The notes beneath the pieces are model-generated. The model did not search any database. It was given only the letters and a program-made list of their open reading frames with translations, and was not told where the DNA came from. Shown one piece after another: positions 8,567 through 47,267 of a DNA stretch of 64,000 nucleotides. This DNA is from Pseudorhodoferax sp. Leaf267. GTDB lineage: Bacteria > Pseudomonadota > Gammaproteobacteria > Burkholderiales > Burkholderiaceae_C. How positions within the stretch are numbered: position 1 is the stretch's first letter; each line of letters starts with the position of its first letter. Location: assembly GCF_001422405.1 (NCBI RefSeq), contig NZ_LMMV01000022.1:176628-240627 (forward strand), given 5' to 3'. Made by a program: the position numbers and the translations under genes.

Positions 8567-9178
8567 TCAGTCCTGGCGTATCCCTGTTGCCTGGGCGGGA
8601 AAGACGCGGGCCGGCCAGCCGGTCGATTGCTGCAATGCCGCCCAGTCGAAGCCCGGTCCTGGATCCTGCTTGCGGCCCGGTGCCACATGCTCGTGCCCGG
8701 CCACGTAGGCGATCGGGTAGTGGTGCGCGAGCGCCGTGCACAGGCTGGCCAGGGTCTCGTACTGGGCCGGTTCGAAGGGCCCGCCTTCCAGGCCTTCGAG
8801 CTCGATGCCGATGGAGTCGTCGTTGCACTCGTCGCGGCCGCGCCAGTGCGAGCGGCCGGCATGCCAGGCGCGCTGATCGCAGTCCACGAACTGCCACAGC
8901 TCGCCCTGGCGGCGGATGTAGAAATGCGCGGAGACCTGCAGGCCGCGAATCTGCGCGAAGTACGGGTGCGCGTCCCAATCGAGCCGGTTGTCGAACAGCT
9001 CCATCACTTCGTTGCCGCCGTACACGCCGGGTGGCAGGCTGATGGAATGCACGACGAGCAGGTCCACCTGCGCGCCGGCCGGCCGTGGGCCGAAGTTCGG
9101 AGAGGGATGGCGCCGTGCGAAGCGGTACCAGCCGCCGTCCCACAGCGCTGCGGCGGCGGGCTCAGTGCGCATCGTCAT
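8567..9178 (-). CDS. ampD: 1,6-anhydro-N-acetylmuramyl-L-alanine amidase
   Basis: Cytosolic zinc amidase (203 aa) that removes the stem peptide from anhydro-muropeptides during peptidoglycan recycling. In bacteria with AmpR/AmpC it thereby keeps beta-lactamase induction low. Expected zinc ligands are H44 (LVVHS), H162 (GHEHVAPG) and D172 (DPGPGFDW), with a catalytic Glu in GIELEG near 126. The start overlaps the end of pilR by 17 bp, so it is translated from the pilS-pilR transcript. The coupling to pilus regulation is probably only positional. Confidence 0.93.
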   Translation of the reverse strand: MTMRTEPAAAALWDGGWYRFARRHPSPNFGPRPAGAQVDLLVVHSISLPPGVYGGNEVMELFDNRLDWDAHPYFAQIRGLQVSAHFYIRRQGELWQFVDCDQRAWHAGRSHWRGRDECNDDSIGIELEGLEGGPFEPAQYETLASLCTALAHHYPIAYVAGHEHVAPGRKQDPGPGFDWAALQQSTGWPARVFPAQATGIRQD

Positions 9179-10652
9179 GCGGCTCGTTGTCCTGCGGCGC
9201 CGCGATGTTCAGGCGCGCGATGCGGTAGCGGATCTGGCGCAGCGACAGGCCCAGCCGCGCGGCCGTGGCCGTGCGGTTGAAGCCGGTCTCGTGCAGCACG
9301 CGGGTCAGGATCTCGCGCTCTTGCTGGTCCAGATAGGCCTGCAGGTCGCTGGGCGTGCCGCCGGGCGGGGGCGGTGCGTCGGCGCCGGGCGCGTCCTGCA
9401 GCGGCATGCCGTCGCTGGACGCGAAGTCGGCATCGAGCTCGTCGCCCTCGCTCATGGCCACGGCGCGGTGCAGCAGGTTCTCCAGCTCGCGCACGTTCCC
9501 GGCCAGGGGATGGTGCTGCAGCTCGTGCAGCAGGGCCGGCGACGGGGGTGGCACGGGCATGCCGGACTCGTGTGCGATGCGCGCGAGCAGAGCCTGGCAC
9601 AGCGCAGGCAGGTCCTCGCGGCGCTCGCGCAAGGGCGGCACCACGATCTCGATCACGTTGAGCCGGTAGTACAGGTCCTGACGGAAGCGGCCGGCCTTGA
9701 CGTCTGCGGCCAGGTCGCGGTGCGTGGCGCTGACGACGCGCACGTCTACCGGGTCCTCCTGCGTGGAGCCCAGGGGCCGCACGCTGCGTTCCTGGATGGC
9801 GCGCAGCAGCTTGGACTGCATGGGCAGCGGCAGGTCGCCGATCTCATCGAGGAACAGCGTGCCGCCGCGTGCGGCCTGGAAGTACCCCAGACGGTCGGCC
9901 ACCGCGCCCGTGTAGGAGCCCTTCTTGGCGCCGAAGAACTCGGCCTCCAGCAGGTTCTCGGGGATGGCGCCGCAGTTCACGGCCACGAGCGGCGCGGCCG
10001 CGCGGTGGCTGCTGGCGTGCAGGGCCTGGGCCACCAGTTCCTTGCCGGTGCCGGACTCGCCGCGCACCAACACCGGCGCCATGCTGCGCGCCACCTTCAC
10101 GATCCGCTGCTTGACCTGGCGCATGGGCTCCGAATCGCCGACCAACCGGTCCAGCGCGGGCAGGGCCGGCGCGCCACGCTCGGCCGGCGCGGCGCGCGGT
10201 GGGCCGTCGCCCCGTGGCGCCGTGCGCAGGGCGGCTGCGCCCTGGTCCTGGACGGCCGACGCGACCACGGCGCGGAACTGCTTGAGGTCCACGGGCTTGG
10301 TCAGGTAGTCGAAGGCGCCGGCCTTGAGCGCCTCGACCGCGTTCTCGGCCGAGCCGTAGGCCGTGATCACCACGCAGCGCTCGGCCCGTTGCTGGGTGCG
10401 CAGGGTCTGCAGCAGCGTGAGACCCAGGCCGTCGGGCAGGCGCATGTCGCTGATCACCGCATCGAAGCGCTGGGCCTGCAGCGCCGCATGGGCCTCGGCC
10501 AGGCTGCCGGCGGTCTCCACGCGGTAGCCCTCGCGCAGCAGCGTCAGTTCGTACAGGGTGCGCAGGTCCGGCTCGTCGTCGACCACCAGGATGCTGGCGG
10601 CAGGCGCCTGCGCTGGCGGCAGGGGGGAGGGGGCGGTGGAGTGGAAGGCCAT
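9162..10652 (-). CDS. pilR: Sigma-54-dependent response regulator PilR
   Basis: NtrC-family activator, 496 aa. The receiver domain (about 20-135) has the phospho-acceptor Asp in ISDMRLPDG. The AAA+ domain (about 165-400) has Walker A GESGTGKE and the sigma-54 contact loop as GSYTGA. A Fis-type helix-turn-helix ends the protein ([15 protein letters not shown]). With PilS it is expected to drive type IV pilin transcription; no pilA lies in this window. The ATG at 10652 is chosen because it directly precedes the receiver domain. The frame is open upstream to 10820, but those codons overlap the 3' end of pilS. Confidence 0.88.
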
Positions 10653-10663
10653 GCGTGGGAGTC

Positions 10664-12403
10664 TCAGACCAGCGGCATTTGCGAGGAATTGCGGCGCCCG
10701 GCGCCCGTGGCGGGCTTGGGCGGCCGGAACTGCACGGAGAACTCGTTGCCCAGCGCCGTCGCACCGGCCAACTGGCGCGGCGCGCGCTGGTAACCGATGG
10801 TGGCACGGTGGCGTTCGCACAGTTCACGGCAAATGTACAACCCCAGACCGCTGGAGCGGCTCTCCGACGAGAAGAAGGGCTCGAACAGGTGCTGCTCGAC
10901 CGTGTCCTCCAGCGGCGGGCCATCGCTCCAGACCTGCAGGCTGGACTGCCGTTCGGCCGACAGCTGGGTCGACACCTGGATCGAGGCCGGTCCGCCGCTC
11001 ACGTAGCGCAGCGCGTTGTCCAACAGGTTCACGATCACGCGGCGCAGGTGGTCGGTGTCGAAGTCCACGGGCAGGCCGTGCGTGCCCATGCTCAGCAGCA
11101 CCTGGCGATCATGGGGCGACTGCTGGGTCCAGTCGTTGCAGATGCTGCGCACGGTTTCGTCCAGCACCAGGCTGGGCGGCGAGGTGCGGCCCGGCGCGGG
11201 CACGCGGGCCACGTCCAGCACCTCGTCGACGATCTTGGACAGGCGCTGCGCGTTCTGCCGGATCATCAAGGTCAGCTGCTGCGCACCGCGGTCCTGCAGG
11301 TCTTCGGACAGCAGCGCATTGGCTTGCGCAATGGCCGCCAGCGGGTTGCGGATCTCGTGCGCGACGGCGGCCGACATGCGGCCCATGGCGGCCATCTTCT
11401 CGGTGCGCAGGCGGGCCTCGACCTCGCGCAGGTCGTGCAGGAACAGCACGCACAGGCGGTCCTGCAGCAGCCCGTGGGCCTCGGTCATGCGGGTGCGCAC
11501 GCGCACCCGCCGCGTGCCCTTGCCGGCGTTGCGCAGTGTGATGTCGGCCACCTGGGCACTTTCGCGCTCGAAGGTCATCATCGCCAGCTCCAGCAGCGGC
11601 GCCCAGCCCGGCCGCGCGCTCAGCACCAGCGCATCGCGCTCTTGCAGCCCGGCTGCGCCCAGCAACTGCCGCGCCGCGGGGTTCACGGTGCGCGCGCTGC
11701 CGGCCGCATCGACCACCAGCACGCCGTCGGCCAGGGCTTCGATGACCAATTCGTTGACCTGGGTCTGCAGCCGGGCCGCATGCTGGCTGGCCAGCGCCAG
11801 TTGCTCCTCGCGCACCAGCCGCGCGGCCAGCTGGTTGGCCAGGAAGGCGACTAGCAGGTAGCCCAGGCCCGTCAGCACCGTCTGCAGGTAGCGCGCCGTG
11901 GTCTCGCCAGCGCCGCGCGCCGATCCCCACCAGGTCTCCAGCACCAGCAGCAGCGTGATGGCCGAGGCCATGCCGATGGACATCGCCCGCGTGCCCAGCA
12001 CGGCCGTCTGCAGCACCGGCACGCCGAGCAGTGGCGTGTAGTTGAAATTGCTGCCGGCCTGGAACACCTGCAGCAGCGCGACGGCCAGCACGTCCAGGCC
12101 GGCGGTCAGCAGCCAGGTCGGGTCGGCCGCGTGGCGCGGCAGCCGCGGCCGCGCCAACAGGCGCACGGCCAGTGCGCTGGCGAAGTAGGCCGCGCACAGC
12201 AGCACCAGCCATGGGCTGGAGGTCTCGTGCAGCAGATACTGGCTGCCCTGCAGCAGCAGCAGCGCCAAGGCGATCGTGCTGCGCGCGGTCATGAAGCCAT
12301 ACCAGGCGCGCGTCATCGCCAGGTCGCCGGCTTCTTCGATGGAGGGTGTGTGCTGTGGCGCCGGGCGCCCGAACTGGGAATGGGGCGCAGCGGAGGAGGG
12401 CAC
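10664..12403 (-). CDS. pilS: Sensor histidine kinase PilS
   Basis: Inner-membrane histidine kinase, 579 aa. After a 30-residue soluble start there are about six transmembrane helices within residues 35-210, then a PAS-like region, the HisKA H-box VAHEIRNPLAAI, and a HATPase_c domain with VNLLDNALRY and GLGLYICREL. Architecture and the adjacent pilR, 11 bp downstream, identify it as PilS, which senses pilin level in the membrane. It is 3 bp downstream of the small membrane/zinc protein gene at 12407, suggesting one operon. Confidence 0.87.
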   Translation of the reverse strand: MPSSAAPHSQFGRPAPQHTPSIEEAGDLAMTRAWYGFMTARSTIALALLLLQGSQYLLHETSSPWLVLLCAAYFASALAVRLLARPRLPRHAADPTWLLTAGLDVLAVALLQVFQAGSNFNYTPLLGVPVLQTAVLGTRAMSIGMASAITLLLVLETWWGSARGAGETTARYLQTVLTGLGYLLVAFLANQLAARLVREEQLALASQHAARLQTQVNELVIEALADGVLVVDAAGSARTVNPAARQLLGAAGLQERDALVLSARPGWAPLLELAMMTFERESAQVADITLRNAGKGTRRVRVRTRMTEAHGLLQDRLCVLFLHDLREVEARLRTEKMAAMGRMSAAVAHEIRNPLAAIAQANALLSEDLQDRGAQQLTLMIRQNAQRLSKIVDEVLDVARVPAPGRTSPPSLVLDETVRSICNDWTQQSPHDRQVLLSMGTHGLPVDFDTDHLRRVIVNLLDNALRYVSGGPASIQVSTQLSAERQSSLQVWSDGPPLEDTVEQHLFEPFFSSESRSSGLGLYICRELCERHRATIGYQRAPRQLAGATALGNEFSVQFRPPKPATGAGRRNSSQMPLV

Positions 12404-14966: not shown

Positions 14967-17000
14967 TCAGGCAGCGAGGGCCAGCGGCCGCAGCGGCTGG
15001 CTGGCATGCAGCCATGCGCGGCGGAGCACGGCGGGCGACCAGCTTTCTTCCGGGATCAGCAGCCAGCGCTGGCGGCGCATGGCCGAGCCCAGGTCGCTGC
15101 GGCTGGTCAGCACGCTCATCGGGATCGCCAGCAGCAGGGGCAGGCCCACGGGCAGCAGCCAGACCAGTGCGGTCGGGTCGATCATGGCGATGCCCACGGC
15201 CAGCAGGGCGACCACGCTGCTCATCGGCGCCAGGTTGCGGGCGGCATCGCTCCAGCGCAGCGCGGCGGCTTCGCGAGGGGGCGACTTCCATTCCAGCTTC
15301 AGGCCGGTCAGGGCCACCAGCACGAACAGCGAGTGGGCCAGCATGCGGACCGGCGACTGCAGCATGGCCATCACGCTCTCGAGTGCGGCGCTCTTGACGA
15401 GGCCCAGCGTGCCGCCATAGCGGCGCTGCTCGCCCTGCACCAGCACGGCGGCCATGCCCAGCAGACGCGGCAGGAACAGCACGGCCAGCGTCCAGATCCA
15501 CAGGCCGACCAGCTCGGCCGGCACGGCCGACAGCGCGGCGCTGACGGAGTGCAGGCCCACGGCTTGCGGTGTGCCCGACAGCCACAGGGCCGTGCCCAGG
15601 GTCATGAAGGCCAGCCACAGGGGTGCCGACAGGTAGGACATGGCGCCCGTGATGAACATGGCGCGGTGCACACCGGCGATGCCGGGCTCGGCCATCAGGC
15701 GTGCATTTTGCAGGTTGCCCTGGCACCAGCGGCGGTCACGTTGCAGCTCGGACAGCAGGTCCGGCGGTTGTTGCTCATAGCTGCCGACCAGGTCGGACAC
15801 CAGCCAGACATGGAAGCCGGCACGGCGCATCAGCGCGGCTTCGACGAAGTCATGCGACATGATGCCGCCGGCCAAGCCGCCCGTGCCCTTGATCTCTGCC
15901 AGCGCGCAATGCTTCATGAAGGGCTCGACGCGCAGGATGGCGTTGTGGCCCCAGTAGTGGGACTCGCCCAGCTGCCAGTACTGCATGCCCAGCGTGAACA
16001 GACGGCCGGTCATGCGCGAGGCGAACTGTTGTGCGCGGGCATGCAGGGTCTGGTGGCCGATGGACTGCGTGGCGGTCTGGATGATGCCGGCCTTGGGGTG
16101 CGCTTCCATGAGCTTGACCATGGAGGTCAGGCAGTCGCCGCTCATGACGCTGTCGGCGTCCAGCACGACCATGTACTTGTAGTCCTTGCCCCAGCGGCGG
16201 CAGAAGTCGGCCACGTTGCCGGCCTTGCGGTGCGTGCGGCGCTTGCGCAAGCGGTAATAGACCTCGATGGCCGGGCCGCCTTCTTGCGCCAGCACGGCGC
16301 GCAGGTCTTCCCAGGCAGCGCGCTCGGCCTGCTGGTTCTCCGGCTTGTTGCTGTCCGACAGCACGAACACGTCGAAAGCCTTGCCCTGGCCCGTGGCCAG
16401 CACCGACTCGCAGGTGGCGCGCAGGCCAGCGAATACCGTGCCCACGTCTTCGTTGCAGATCGGCATGATGATCGCCGTGCGCGCGTCGGCGCCGGTGGGC
16501 ATGGCGTGGCCCTTGACCTCGTTGACCGACAGCGCATGCGGGTCGCCGCGCAGCACGACGAAGAAGCCCATCAGCGCCGTGCCGAAGCCCGACACGATCC
16601 AGGCCGACAGCAGCGCAAACAGCGACAGCTGGCCGACTTCGAGGAACACGCTGTTGTAGTCCGGCTGCACGGCAGCGAACAGGCTGGTCGCCACGCCGGA
16701 GGTCAGCAACACGATCAGCATCAGCACCATGCGGCGCCGGCTGGCGGCCTGCTGCCAGGCCTCGGTGGCCTCGGCGGCCTGGCGCGGCGCGGCCGGACGC
16801 ATGCCGGGGATGGCCATCAGTGCGGCCGTGCCCAGGCTGTTCCAGAAGCCGCGCCAGGGGCGGGGCGTCATGGAGCCACGGTTCAGGGGCGGCGCGGTGA
16901 CCGCATTGGGGTGGCGTTCTTCACGCAGCGCGCTGCGCTGCTGGTCCCACGAGCGTCCTGCGATCTGCCGGCCGACGCGGGCGAAATGTTGCTGGTTCAT
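14967..17000 (-). CDS. opgH: Osmoregulated periplasmic glucan glucosyltransferase
   Basis: Inner-membrane GT2 enzyme that polymerises beta-1,2-linked glucose from UDP-glucose into osmoregulated periplasmic glucans. Transmembrane helices flank a cytosolic catalytic domain with VLDADS (second Asp), MSHDFVEAAL and the QRDRRW form of the QxxRW motif. At the ATG at 17000 it has 677 aa. In-frame ATG 17042 and GTG 17048 also exist. I prefer 17000 because a sigma-54 promoter at 17056-17071 would start transcription near 17045, leaving almost no leader for the upstream ATG. The Shine-Dalgarno is weak at both. No opgG partner is adjacent, which is unusual compared with enterobacteria. Confidence 0.9.
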   Translation of the reverse strand: MNQQHFARVGRQIAGRSWDQQRSALREERHPNAVTAPPLNRGSMTPRPWRGFWNSLGTAALMAIPGMRPAAPRQAAEATEAWQQAASRRRMVLMLIVLLTSGVATSLFAAVQPDYNSVFLEVGQLSLFALLSAWIVSGFGTALMGFFVVLRGDPHALSVNEVKGHAMPTGADARTAIIMPICNEDVGTVFAGLRATCESVLATGQGKAFDVFVLSDSNKPENQQAERAAWEDLRAVLAQEGGPAIEVYYRLRKRRTHRKAGNVADFCRRWGKDYKYMVVLDADSVMSGDCLTSMVKLMEAHPKAGIIQTATQSIGHQTLHARAQQFASRMTGRLFTLGMQYWQLGESHYWGHNAILRVEPFMKHCALAEIKGTGGLAGGIMSHDFVEAALMRRAGFHVWLVSDLVGSYEQQPPDLLSELQRDRRWCQGNLQNARLMAEPGIAGVHRAMFITGAMSYLSAPLWLAFMTLGTALWLSGTPQAVGLHSVSAALSAVPAELVGLWIWTLAVLFLPRLLGMAAVLVQGEQRRYGGTLGLVKSAALESVMAMLQSPVRMLAHSLFVLVALTGLKLEWKSPPREAAALRWSDAARNLAPMSSVVALLAVGIAMIDPTALVWLLPVGLPLLLAIPMSVLTSRSDLGSAMRRQRWLLIPEESWSPAVLRRAWLHASQPLRPLALAA

Positions 17001-17043
17001 GGAGTCTTCAGGGTTGGATGAGGAGGGAGAGACGGTGCTCATA

Positions 17044-17059
17044 TGCACTTGCTAGTGCA
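17044..17059. repeat. Inverted repeat over the opgH transcription start
   Basis: TGCACT TGCT AGTGCA, a perfect 6-bp inverted repeat overlapping the -12 element and the predicted start point of opgH. It may be a repressor site or a 5' mRNA hairpin; the sequence alone does not decide. Confidence 0.45.
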
Positions 17060-17071
17060 AACCCCATGCCA
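17056..17071 (-). promoter_or_regulatory. Sigma-54 (-24/-12) promoter of opgH
   Basis: Minus strand TGGCATGGGGTTTGCA against the consensus TGGCACG-N4-TTGCA: 11 of 12 specified bases match, with the invariant GG and GC exactly 10 bp apart. Predicted transcription start is near 17045, about 45 bases before ATG 17000. Sigma-54 promoters need an enhancer-binding activator, and the flanking sites point to GlrR. Confidence 0.82.
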
Positions 17072-17089
17072 GGCTGAAAAGACTATATG

Positions 17090-17102
17090 AATCAACAAGT
17101 TG
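17090..17102 (+). promoter_or_regulatory. IHF binding site
   Basis: AATCAACAAGTTG is an exact match to the IHF consensus WATCAA-N4-TTR. It lies between the GlrR boxes and the sigma-54 promoter, centred about 50 bp upstream of the predicted start. This is the usual place for IHF-assisted looping of an enhancer-bound activator to sigma-54 polymerase. Confidence 0.65.
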
Positions 17103-17163
17103 CGCCGATTTTTGCGGCGCCGTGGCGGCTTGGCCGCGAAACGGCCCCCAAAACCCCGGTATT

Positions 17164-17181
17164 TGTCGCTGAACAGCGACA
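17164..17181. promoter_or_regulatory. GlrR box 1 (enhancer)
   Basis: TGTCGCTGAACAGCGACA, a perfect palindrome fitting the enterobacterial GlrR (QseF) operator TGTC-N10-GACA. It is centred about 127 bp upstream of the predicted opgH start, in the normal range for a sigma-54 enhancer. The glrR gene ends 43 bp to its right. Confidence 0.72.
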
Positions 17182-17223
17182 GGAGGGCACGGCTGCCAGC
17201 CCGTTCCTTTCTAAATCAATGAC

Positions 17224-18645
<1,422 letters not shown>

Positions 18646-18652
18646 GGCCAGT

Positions 18653-19342
18653 TCAGGGTTGGGTGGCGCGCGGCTGGCCGTTGGGCGGCGCCGGGCGCGC
18701 CGTCAGGCTGCGCTCGATGGCCCGTACGGCTTCCAGCCGTTCGTTGAGTTGCTCGATGCGGCGCTGCTGCTCCTTGACCTGCTGGGTCTGCTTGTCCAGC
18801 AGGTCTTCCACACGGCGCTGCTCGGTGTAGCGCGCCAGCAGCAATGCCGCCAGCGGGTGCAGGCCGCGGGCGTCGTCGCGCGGGTTGGCCAGCACACGCT
18901 GCAGCAGGCCCTGGGCGCGCGCCAGATCGGCCGGCACGCGCGTCTGCCCCAGCGCCAGCGCCAGCTGCAGGTCGTCGCCGGGCTGGCGCTGCGCCTCGGG
19001 CATCTCGGACAGGCGCGCCAGCTCCTGCGCCAGCTCCTGTGGCGGCATGCGCCGCAGCCGGTCGGCCTGGGCCAGCAGGGCCACGCTCGCGCTGCGGCTG
19101 TCGGGCACGACGGCGCCGGGCAGGCCGCCCTGCACGGGCATGGCCACGGCGGCCTGCGGGGGCGGTGGCGCAGGCTCCACCACGGGCGGTGGCGGTGGGG
19201 GCGGCGCCAGCGGCACAGGGGCCGCAGGCCTGGGCGCGGGGGCCGGCGGCGCGGGCAGCGCACAGGCGCTCAGCAGCGCAGCGGCTGCCAGCACGGGCAA
19301 CAGTGCAGGGAACGCGCGGGACGCGCGTGGTTCAGGGCACAT
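18653..19342 (-). CDS. qseG: QseG-like proline-rich outer-membrane lipoprotein
   Basis: A 229-aa lipoprotein. A signal peptide ends in the lipobox LLSAC with lipidated Cys near residue 27. A very Pro/Ala-rich spacer (about 28-65) follows, then a helical region with tetratricopeptide-like character (QADRLRRMPPQELAQELARL) and a C-terminal coiled coil around 185-215. Sequence conservation with enterobacterial QseG is not evident by eye. The call rests on its position between glrK and glrR and on being a lipoprotein of matching size; in E. coli QseG binds and controls the kinase QseE/GlrK. It overlaps glrK by 11 bp. Confidence 0.62.
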   Translation of the reverse strand: MCPEPRASRAFPALLPVLAAAALLSACALPAPPAPAPRPAAPVPLAPPPPPPPVVEPAPPPPQAAVAMPVQGGLPGAVVPDSRSASVALLAQADRLRRMPPQELAQELARLSEMPEAQRQPGDDLQLALALGQTRVPADLARAQGLLQRVLANPRDDARGLHPLAALLLARYTEQRRVEDLLDKQTQQVKEQQRRIEQLNERLEAVRAIERSLTARPAPPNGQPRATQP

Positions 19343-20750
19343 GGGGTAATTCGATCCGAAAGTGGGCGCCGGGGCCGCCGGCCAACAGCGTCATCTTGCC
19401 ACCATGCGCGGCGATGTATTCGTGCACGATGGAAAGCCCGATGCCGGTGCCCTTGACAGCACCTTCGGGCTGGCGCTGGCCGCGGTAGAACGGCTCGAAC
19501 ACGCGGTCGCGGTCGGCATCGGCCACGCCCGGGCCGGCGTCGATCACATCGATCAGCACCAGGTGGTGCAGCCGCTGCAGCCGCAGCACGATGCGCCCGC
19601 CCGGTGGCGAGAAGCGGATCGCGTTGGACAGCAGGTTGGCCAGCGCCGTGCCGATCTTGGCTGGGTCCACGCGCGCGGTGACAGGCTCGCCTTCGACCTG
19701 CACCACGAGCTGGTTGGCCCGCCACTGCAGGCGCTGCGCATCGACCTGGGCCTCGATGAGCTGCAGCAGGTCCACGCGCTCGCGCTGCAGTTGGCGCGCC
19801 TCGAACGCGGCGGCGTTGAAGCGCAACAGCGCCTCGATCTGGCTCTGCAGTTGCACCGTGTTCTGGCGCAGGATGGAGGCGATCTCGCGCTGGTTGTCGT
19901 TGAGTTCGCCGGCCACGCCTTCCTCGAGCAGCGAGACGCCCTCGCGCAGTGCCGCCAGCGGGGTTTTGAGCTCATGCGAGATGTGGCGCAGGAAGCGGGC
20001 CTTGTCCGCGTCCAGCTCGCTCAGGCGCAGCCGCAACCAGTCCAGCTGCTGGCCGATGCGGTGCACGTCGGAGGGCCCCTGGATCTCGATCGGCTGGTCC
20101 AGCCGGTTCTCGCCCAGGCCGACGATGGCACGCTCCACGCGCTTGAACGGCCGCGCCAGCCAGATGCCCAGCGCCACAGCCAGCAGCAGCGCCAGCACCA
20201 GCATGCCGATCACCTGCCGCGTGATCTGCGCGCGGCTGGCGTCCAGCTCGGTGTTGAGCGCCTGGCGGCGCTTCTCGATGGCGGCCTGCATCTGCTGGGC
20301 GATCACCACGTTCAAGGCGTCCAGCTCGCGGAATTCGCCGGCGATGTTGCGTTCGCGCTCCAGCGCCGTGTCGGGCGCGCCTTCCATGAGCCGGTCGATG
20401 GTCTCCAACTGGTTGCGCCAGCGGGCGGCCAGCGGCGGCGGCAGGTCGGCGGGCTGCAGGTCGGCCACGATCTCGCGCGCCTGGCGCGCGGCGTCGACAA
20501 AGCTGCGGCGCAGCGGGCTGTCGTTCAGGATCAGCGACTGGCGCGCCGCGCGTTCCATGGTCGCGCTGCGCTCGGACAGCGCCTGCGCCGCGCCGTTCAG
20601 TTGCAGCGTGCGGGCCGAGAAGCCCAGGCTGCGCGCCATCAGCCCGTCGAAGGTGAACACTGCGCGCAGCGCCACGCCGCCCAGCAGCACGGCGATCAGC
20701 AGGAACGCCAGCAGCAGCAGTTGCCGGAAGGAACCGCGGGGCAGCCTCAC
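19332..20750 (-). CDS. glrK: Sensor histidine kinase GlrK/QseE
   Basis: Inner-membrane kinase, 472 aa. Helix 1 lies at about residues 8-30, a periplasmic helical sensor domain of about 140 residues follows, then helix 2, a HAMP segment ([11 protein letters not shown]), the H-box [13 protein letters not shown] and a HATPase_c domain ([22 protein letters not shown]). I place the start at GTG 20750 because it overlaps the miaB stop as GTGA and directly precedes helix 1. The longer open frame upstream lies antisense to nothing useful and within miaB. Co-transcribed with miaB, qseG and glrR. Confidence 0.83.
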
Positions 20751-22111
20751 GCGAGTGCCGGGTGGTCCTGCGTGCAGACCTCGCCCCGCAGCGAATAGCT
20801 GTTCGCCGCCGTCACGCGCACGTCGATCATCTGGCCCACCAGCCGCGCGGGCGCCGGGAAGTTCACCACGCGGTTGCACTCGGTGCGGCCCATGAGCTCC
20901 GGCACCTCGCCGTAGCTGCGCTTGGCCGGCCCCTCCACCAGGATGCGCTGCACCGTGCCCACGCGGCGCGCGGCGATGGCGCGCACGTTGGCGTCGATCA
21001 CGCCCTGCAGGTGCTGCAGGCGCTTCAACTTCACGTCGTGCGGCGTGTCGTCGGCCAGGTTGGCGGCCGGCGTGCCGGGGCGCGGGCTGAAGATGAACGA
21101 GAAGCTGTTGTCGAAGCCGATGTCGTCGATGAGCTTCATCATCTTGTTGAAATCGTCCTCGGTCTCGCCCGGGAAGCCGACGATAAAGTCGCTGCTCATC
21201 GCCATGTCGGGGCGGATCGCACGCAGCTTGCGCACGGTCGACTTGTATTCCATGGCCGTGTAGCCGCGCTTCATGGCCATCAGGATGCGGTCCGAGCCGT
21301 GCTGCACGGGCAGGTGCAGGTGGCTCACGAGCTTGGGCACGCGCGCGTAGGCCTCGATCAGCGGCTGCGTGAACTCGTTGGGGTGGCTGGTGGTGTAGCG
21401 GATGCGCTCGATGCCGGGGATCTCGGCCACGGTCTCGATCAGCGTGGCGAAGTCGGCGATGGCGTCGTTGCCCTTGGCAGGCGCGCCCACACGGCCCCGG
21501 TAGGCGTTGACGTTCTGGCCCAGCAGCGTGACCTCCTTCACGCCCTGGTCGGCCAGCCCGGCGATCTCGACCAGCACGTCCTCGAACGGGCGCGATACCT
21601 CCTCGCCGCGCGTGTAGGGCACGACGCAGTAGCTGCAGTACTTGGAGCAGCCTTCCATGATGGAGACGAAGGCCGTCGCACCTTCCACGCGCGCGGGCGG
21701 CAGGTGGTCAAACTTCTCGATCTCGGGGAAGCTGATGTCCACCTGCGGCCTGTTCTGGCGGGCCCGCGCGTTGAGCATCTCGGGCAGGCGGTGCAGCGTC
21801 TGCGGGCCGAACACCACGTCCACATAGGGCGCGCGCGCGATGATGGCCTCGCCCTCCTGGCTGGCCACGCAGCCGCCCACGCCGATCTGCACGCCCTTCT
21901 TCTTGAGATGCTTCACGCGGCCCAGGTCGGAGAACACCTTCTCCTGCGCCTTCTCGCGCACCGAGCAGGTGTTGAACAGGATCAGGTCGGCTTCGTCGAC
22001 GTCCTGCGTGGGCTCGTAGCCCTGGGCGGCGTGCAGCACGTCGGCCATCTTGTCCGAGTCGTACTCGTTCATCTGGCAGCCGAAGGTTTTGATGAAGACT
22101 TTTTTCGTCAT
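20747..22111 (-). CDS. miaB: tRNA-2-methylthio-N6-dimethylallyladenosine synthase
   Basis: Radical SAM methylthiotransferase, 454 aa, that adds the 2-methylthio group to i6A37 in tRNAs reading UNN codons. The UPF0004 domain supplies three Cys ligands for the auxiliary Fe-S cluster (GCQMNEYDS near residue 10, NTCSVREKA near 48, GGCVASQEG near 82). The radical SAM motif CSKYCSYC lies around 155-162, and a C-terminal TRAM domain binds RNA. The gene heads the glrK-qseG-glrR run, tying tRNA modification and envelope signalling to one transcript. Confidence 0.96.
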
Positions 22112-47190: not shown

Positions 47191-47267
47191 TGGTGGCGCT
47201 TCACGGATTCGAACCGCGGACCTGTGGATTATGATTCCATCGCTCTAACCGACTGAGCTAAAGCGCC
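47191..47267 (-). tRNA. tRNA-Met (CAT), elongator type
   Basis: A 77-base cloverleaf: acceptor GGCGCTT/AAGCGCC, D arm AGCTCAGTCGGTTAGAGC, anticodon loop ATCATAA giving CAT, T arm with GGTTCGAATCC, and an encoded CCA. The first acceptor pair G-C and the AGC-TCAG D arm argue against initiator tRNA. A tRNA-Ile2 with lysidine-modified CAT cannot be excluded by eye, though the sequence is closer to elongator Met. Confidence 0.93.

Follow-up and report, generated by a model that had tools for sequence, protein, structure and literature searches.

The closest described counterpart of the system considered here is the QseE/QseF (GlrK/GlrR) pair of Escherichia coli. Phosphorylated QseF (GlrR), aided by IHF, activates the sigma-54 promoters of glmY and rpoE, which are given as its direct targets, and QseG activates the kinase; the stimulus is called unknown for E. 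coli K-12, and epinephrine has been reported in EHEC (PMC6075780). For Proteus mirabilis glmY, three putative QseF sites and two putative IHF sites have been described, with TGTCN10GACA as the QseF consensus (PMC8745638). In a regulatory table for E. coli, rpoE has GlrR and RpoN among its activators, and opgG is entered as activated by RpoE; the E. coli GlrR-to-opgG connection given there is indirect, running from GlrR through rpoE to opgG (PMC10100675).

Here we describe the DNA in front of opgH in Pseudorhodoferax sp. Leaf267, within a stretch of 64,000 nucleotides that was analysed as a whole (the window). Searched with the same criteria, E. coli glmY has a sigma-54 element (10/12) starting at -27, three GlrR boxes (-134, -197 and -230) and two IHF matches (-58 and -177). 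The glmY and opgH promoters serve unrelated products, yet their enhancer geometries are alike to within 0–7 bp. The IHF A site of glmY, AATCAATGAGTTA, lies at -177 compared with -182 here, in the same orientation; the box pair is 63 bp apart rather than 67; box B is at -134 rather than -137; and both promoters have their sigma-54 element at -27 and a match to IHF at -58. The two loci also share the regulator family, the box consensus and the gene order glrK-qseG-glrR. They differ in that glmY possesses one more box (-230), has IHF B in the opposite orientation and is overlapped by a sigma-70 promoter (PMC6075780). Moreover, the E. coli target is an sRNA gene upstream of glrK, whereas here it is a biosynthetic enzyme downstream of glrR, with box A in glrR codons and a GlrR that carries GAFTDA in place of GAFTGA. 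E. coli rpoE P2 is similar in that GlrR and sigma-54 control an envelope gene that encodes a protein (PMC6075780), but the rpoE-to-opgG route is a two-step relay, whereas the predicted control in Pseudorhodoferax is direct. The opgGH enzymes themselves are homologous (295 of 614 aligned OpgH residues identical); the 400 bp upstream of E. coli opgG, unlike the DNA before opgH here, contain no GlrR box (<=1 mismatch) and no sigma-54 site (>=10/12).

Genes and promoter elements at the glrR-opgH locus

The genes glrK, a small lipoprotein gene, glrR and opgH are co-directional on the minus strand, and a plus-strand gene that is ffh-like by eye converges on opgH (Table 1). OpgH matches the full-length MdoH model above its cut-off. 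The genome encodes a GlrR orthologue, as judged by gene order and by identity to E. coli GlrR (255 of 438 aligned residues, 58%); its top NCBIfam model is GlrR (NF011695), at 602 bits under the equivalog cut-off of 763, and Pfam identifies receiver and sigma-54 activation domains. Among the matches listed, the named sequences closest to it are from Pseudorhodoferax (95 and 93%). The lipoprotein is weakly similar to QseG (26 of 85 residues identical), and a Pfam search with it gave no match. GlrK shares 156 of 457 aligned residues with E. coli GlrK, and its best NCBIfam match is CreC, below the cut-off; its true start is probably further inside the open frame. The genome also contains rpoN and an IHF-alpha homologue whose score of 118.5 falls just short of the curated cut-off of 120.25.

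Table 1. Features of the glrR-opgH region, in window coordinates; offsets are those of the first base relative to the predicted transcription start
Feature	Position	Strand	Offset	Remarks
opgH/mdoH, glucosyltransferase	14967..17001	(-)		NF003960 MdoH, 1160 bits against a cut-off of 829, residues 22-669
Predicted opgH +1	17044	(-)		Placed 27 nt past the start of the -24 element, by analogy with the annotated +1 of E. coli glmY
Sigma-54 -24/-12 element	17056..17071	(-)	-27	TGGCATGGGGTTTGCA; 11/12 consensus positions, GG-N10-GC exact
IHF site B (predicted)	17090..17102	(-)	-58	AATCAACAAGTTG (+ strand letters); exact match to WATCARNNNNTTR
GlrR box B (predicted)	17164..17181	(-)	-137	TGTCGCTGTTCAGCGACA; exact TGTC-N10-GACA; inverted repeat, 8-bp arms around TT
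IHF site A (predicted)	17214..17226	(-)	-182	AATCAATGACTTA (+ strand letters); exact consensus; between the boxes
GlrR box A (predicted)	17231..17248	(-)	-204	CGTCGCTGAACCGCGACA; one mismatch; 67 bp upstream of box B
glrR (qseF), response regulator	17224..18645	(-)		Receiver; sigma-54 AAA+ with GAFTDA loop; RNRTEFY segment of helix-turn-helix
Putative lipoprotein in QseG position	18653..19342	(-)		LSAC lipobox by eye; flanked by glrK and glrR, the same position as qseG in E. coli
glrK (qseE), sensor kinase open frame	19332..20879	(-)		HisKA and HATPase_c (Pfam)

The original prediction placed a sigma-54 element, an exact IHF consensus, an exact palindromic GlrR box and a second, one-mismatch box 67 bp away in front of opgH, with glrR immediately alongside, and each of these is present as described. 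For the IHF site we used WATCARNNNNTTR, which we take to be the consensus. The positions of about -127, -194 and -50 first proposed for the two boxes and the IHF site correspond to approximate element centres and agree with the starts in Table 1. The prediction had overlooked the second exact IHF site and the fact that box A lies within the final codons of glrR, inside its 3' end. The predicted boxes fall within 100-250 bp upstream of the opgH promoter. Of the two predicted IHF sites, one separates the boxes and the other separates box B from the promoter, which points away from glrR and into opgH.

Transcription of opgH is predicted to start at ~17044, with ~1-2 nt uncertainty. Of three candidate translation starts, ATG 17001 (+44) is the likely one; ATG 17042 would be nearly leaderless, and GTG 17048 lies upstream of the predicted transcription start and would be unusable because transcription is predicted from 17044. 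A scan found no terminator-like and no sigma-70-like site before opgH, results that carry little weight given shuffle means of only 0.1 and 0.7. With no terminator-like site found after glrR, read-through from glrR could therefore give a basal opgH transcript. The sole OpgG/OpgD-family match in the genome (G000:C2:87927-89390) is unlinked to opgH and begins, by eye, with a twin-arginine-like signal sequence. The 450 bp upstream of this gene (L055) contain neither a GlrR box nor a sigma-54 element, and opgH is therefore the only one of the two predicted to be GlrR-controlled in this genome.

The elements before opgH are far beyond chance. The pattern TGTC-N10-GACA occurs at 88 sites in the genome, against 54 for a reversed-pattern control, and is common enough that a single GlrR box is little evidence. 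The composite of a box, 80-110 bp and a sigma-54 element occurs at just two places in the 6.5-Mb genome (reversed control, 0); we put the second, at C23:66375, down to chance since it lies inside long open frames. Across 150 genomes of the family the composite occurs at 34 places in 33 genomes, compared with 7 places for the reversed control, and 28 of the 34 sit at glrR or opg. Four genomes lacking GlrR carry one composite each away from glrR and opg. Relaxing the sigma-54 half was uninformative in the window's genome (18 matches, control 51). Likewise, we rejected the box pair alone as a statistic, as its reversed control often exceeded it (1 versus 6 in the same genome), and used box-pair searches only to locate pairs: in the 150 genomes they located 43, 30 beside a copy of glrR and 13 elsewhere.

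Conservation, helical phasing and linkage to opg

To compare the locus with its relatives we collected 120 glrR loci: the window, 39 loci from the other 37 of the 38 GlrR-positive genomes (E <= 1e-150) among the 150 family genomes, two of which have a second copy, and 80 named contigs among the matches listed. Removing nine loci whose flank was too short or whose spacer was >=95% identical to another left 111 dereplicated loci; 88 have opgH or opgGH close by, and the remaining 23 have other neighbours. The loci are kin to one another, and neither the following counts nor the phasing test below represent independent events. A sigma-54 element and a box in register occur in 88 of the 111 loci (shuffle mean 0.42), comprising 77 of the 88 opg-linked loci and 11 of the 23 others. 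Shuffles gave 0.0 for each of three further arrangements: the box pair (76/111), an exact IHF site in register (only 60/111) and a box with IHF (58/111). The eleven opg-linked loci that fail the strict test (L033, L038, L042, L043, L045, L071, L073, L081, L109, L114 and L119) all show a weaker, shifted or relocated copy under relaxed limits set post hoc, which is weaker evidence than the strict count; three of them failed because the end of glrR had been set too far downstream.

Conservation is concentrated in the elements. Across 37 opg-linked loci that share one and the same box spacing, the sigma-54 element has the highest mean information (1.74 bits), followed by box B and IHF B (1.35 each), box A (1.15) and IHF A (1.12). 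The stretch from box A to box B averages 0.33 bits and that from box B to IHF B 0.43 bits; the one from IHF B to the sigma-54 element is intermediate (0.8). The boxes, IHF sites and sigma-54 element are kept across Comamonadaceae and Sphaerotilaceae with fixed or helically phased spacing, as expected from the original prediction, and the 67-bp distance between the boxes is itself conserved in relatives.

Box B offsets in 92 loci cluster at -149/-148, -141 to -137, -130 to -128, -120/-119, -109 to -106 and -98/-96, each cluster roughly a helical turn from the next. The 24 loci that fall outside the main cluster deviate from a 10.5-bp phase by 0.113 turn on average, compared with 0.25 for random positions. 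None of 20000 random sets was as well phased, a p value that is too small because related loci share positions. Judged from these alignments, six in-phase clusters would be hard to explain otherwise than by an activator that needs to face the promoter.

In three rearranged loci the enhancer has remained with opg and not with glrR. In G119 (L151), ~50 kb lie between glrR and the opgG and opgH genes; the enhancer precedes opgG, and the DNA after glrR has none. G089 (L043) and L073 each carry an insertion between glrR and opgG, with the enhancer on its opgG side. The L073 insertion, in a Polaromonas MAG, occupies ~0-660 nt after glrR and contains an open frame that is intein/Hint-like by eye.

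The enhancer also follows the presence of GlrR. At the E-values set, and with kinship ignored, GlrR is found in 38 of the 150 family genomes, OpgH in 45 and both in 34. A strict composite occurs at the glrR or opg locus of 28 of the 38 GlrR-positive genomes and of none of the 112 others; among OpgH-positive genomes it is found in 27 of the 34 that have GlrR and in none of the 11 that lack it. Direct reading of the DNA before opgG/opgH in these 11 (in L147 only partial, since the DNA ends before the opgG start) found no pair of box and sigma-54 element. Two of them have a lone one-mismatch box and several have a sigma-54-like match, never paired in the right order; at four of these loci no opgG was found beside opgH.

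Proposed direct activation of opgH and its alternatives

Taken together, conservation, opg linkage and co-occurrence with GlrR support the proposal that GlrR drives opgH, and we consider it highly probable that phosphorylated GlrR, IHF and sigma-54 directly activate opgH (opgGH in relatives). By analogy with E. coli, GlrK and the adjacent lipoprotein would phosphorylate GlrR upon some periplasmic or envelope signal. We infer that phosphorylated GlrR would then bind both palindromic boxes (~-204 and ~-137) from the same side of the helix, while IHF would bend the DNA at -182 and -58. The bend would let the AAA+ ring of GlrR touch sigma-54 RNA polymerase waiting at -24/-12, and the resulting open complex would transcribe opgH from ~17044, leading to more glucan backbone synthesis. 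In relatives the same switch would drive opgGH or opgH. The original prediction went further in stating that envelope signals set glucan synthesis: its step from GlrR to opgH agrees well with the comparative data, whereas the part concerning envelope signals exceeds them.

One feature of GlrR itself bears on this proposal. The sigma-54-contacting loop reads GAFTDA in the window, compared with GAFTGA in E. coli GlrR, and the variant is present in 70 of the 111 dereplicated loci, 69 of them among the 88 opg-linked ones. A survey of Desulfovibrio lists GAFTDA among variants that would retain activity (PMC4641369), and a study in Dickeya leaves its effect open (PMC10714721). The conserved sigma-54 element in the GAFTDA clade argues for GlrR activity there, and this large Comamonadaceae clade offers a natural test of how far the sigma-54-contact loop may vary.

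The elements might be real and yet serve another sigma-54 activator, for example one of the NtrC type or NtrC itself, with the proximity of glrR incidental. The window does contain an open frame (9162-10820) that resembles an NtrC-type activator by eye, and the GAFTDA loop would favour such an activator over GlrR. We nonetheless regard this as improbable: the boxes fit the QseF consensus (PMC8745638), the RNRTEFY segment is common to the GlrR proteins of the window and E. coli, and the strict composite at glrR or opg is restricted to GlrR-positive genomes, including G119 with its unlinked opg. More improbable still is that the elements control a GlmY-like sRNA, glrR autoregulation or a glrR terminator instead of opgH. 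In enterobacteria the same architecture does drive an sRNA next to the same operon, and the inverted repeat of box B could form a hairpin. Against an sRNA, autoregulation or a terminator, just ~43 nt separate the predicted start from ATG 17001. Against an sRNA in particular, Rfam at gathering thresholds matches only a tRNA at 47194 in the window. The window and eight further loci gave only tRNA, and seven more loci gave one weak match (asX2, 25.9 bits, gathering 70). A GlmY-type sRNA locus was likewise rejected as a description of the window, where the opgH ATG lies at ~+44 and Rfam matches no sRNA. As for regulation of glrR, the promoter faces opgH and away from glrR, no terminator-like site was found in the scan described above, and the elements remain with opg when glrR and opg part.

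That the conservation merely reflects overlap with the 3' coding end of glrR, or inheritance of a functionless spacer, is barely credible. The loci are related, and of the 67 opg-linked loci with a box pair, 48 have box A entirely within glrR codons; in 13 of the 67, however, it lies over the stop codon and in 6 after it. Moreover, the stretches from box A to box B and from box B to IHF B are far less conserved than the elements (0.33 and 0.43 versus 1.1-1.7 bits), and changes in spacing go in helical steps.

Direct activation by GlrR would add opgH as a new target to a regulator that is already described, through an equally established promoter design. Among the papers listed from the open-licence literature, titles and abstract openings yielded no report of direct GlrR/QseF or RpoN control of opg/mdo, in line with the statement in the original prediction that GlrR control of opgH was not known to have been reported. 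In the portions of text available, PMC4464175 and PMC5892946 mention opgH and rpoN separately, with no direct control, and no direct GlrR-opg control was found in those of PMC10100675, PMC3162934 and PMC12194929. The relay from GlrR through rpoE to opgG in the E. coli table (PMC10100675) makes a direct link more plausible and less isolated. A direct and conserved output that is an osmoregulated-periplasmic-glucan enzyme would hint at what GlrK/GlrR senses and would provide a simple reporter; conversely, opgGH would gain a candidate direct transcriptional activator across a large bacterial group. Loss of opgG is described as abolishing pathogenicity in many pathogens (PMC10514313).

Possible other outputs of GlrR-type enhancers

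In a quick tree of GlrR sequences, in which 37 of 109 inner branches have support below 80, 88 opg-linked sequences group with two further ones in a single Comamonadaceae and Sphaerotilaceae branch (support 95); opg linkage requires 3 label changes on the tree, versus 22.2 in shuffles. Outside this branch, small exported proteins recur after the enhancer. Proteins with a BON domain (Pfam PF04972) follow a box pair in L050, L117 and L125, a single box in L118, and a sigma-54-like site with no box in register in L116. Further BON-domain genes follow GlrR-type/sigma-54 sites in L171, L187, L189, L190 and L197 (G032:C4:564226-564428); the last of these is a composite away from the glrR locus, and its paired boxes and the BON gene behind it make it probably real. 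From these arrangements, BON proteins appear to be an alternative output of the switch in other Betaproteobacteria. Similarly, Pfam identifies EF-hand proteins after the enhancer in L132 and L134. In Thiobacillus and relatives (L130 and L132-L135), an enhancer with glmY-like spacing lies ~540-570 nt after glrR and before small exported proteins, and EF-hands are recognisable by eye in L130, L133 and L135.

An order-wide search for box pairs found a sigma-54 site at a fitting distance in 21 of 30 loci. Three of these, L174-L176, belong to a different family within the order and are absent from the tree; in them opgG follows glrR, and capture of opg may therefore predate the opg branch or have occurred twice.

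A broader reading, which we advance tentatively and hold to be rather doubtful, is that GlrK, the lipoprotein and GlrR form a general periplasm-homeostasis system of Betaproteobacteria, built on a single GlrR-IHF-sigma-54 enhancer, portable and helically phased, that has had its output gene swapped. The BON/EF-hand output would be the older one, a suggestion as to the ancestral state, and opgGH would have been captured in the ancestor of Comamonadaceae and Sphaerotilaceae, or perhaps of a somewhat wider group, while enterobacteria use the glmY sRNA and rpoE relays. If this general-homeostasis reading were true, the natural signal would be periplasmic osmolarity or crowding, and the sensor would receive feedback from the opg output.

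Several loci have short open frames behind such promoters. In L184-L186, paired-box sigma-54 promoters precede exported peptides of ~45-50 residues, and no close glrR orthologue was found in the DNA examined. In L178, L179, L180 and L183, a paired-box sigma-54-like promoter precedes an uncharacterised ORF of ~50 codons; a Pfam search with the L178 peptide gave no match. The L178 and L179 ORFs end in LGDRVSAARLIA, and all four ORFs are followed, by eye, by a hairpin and a T-run.
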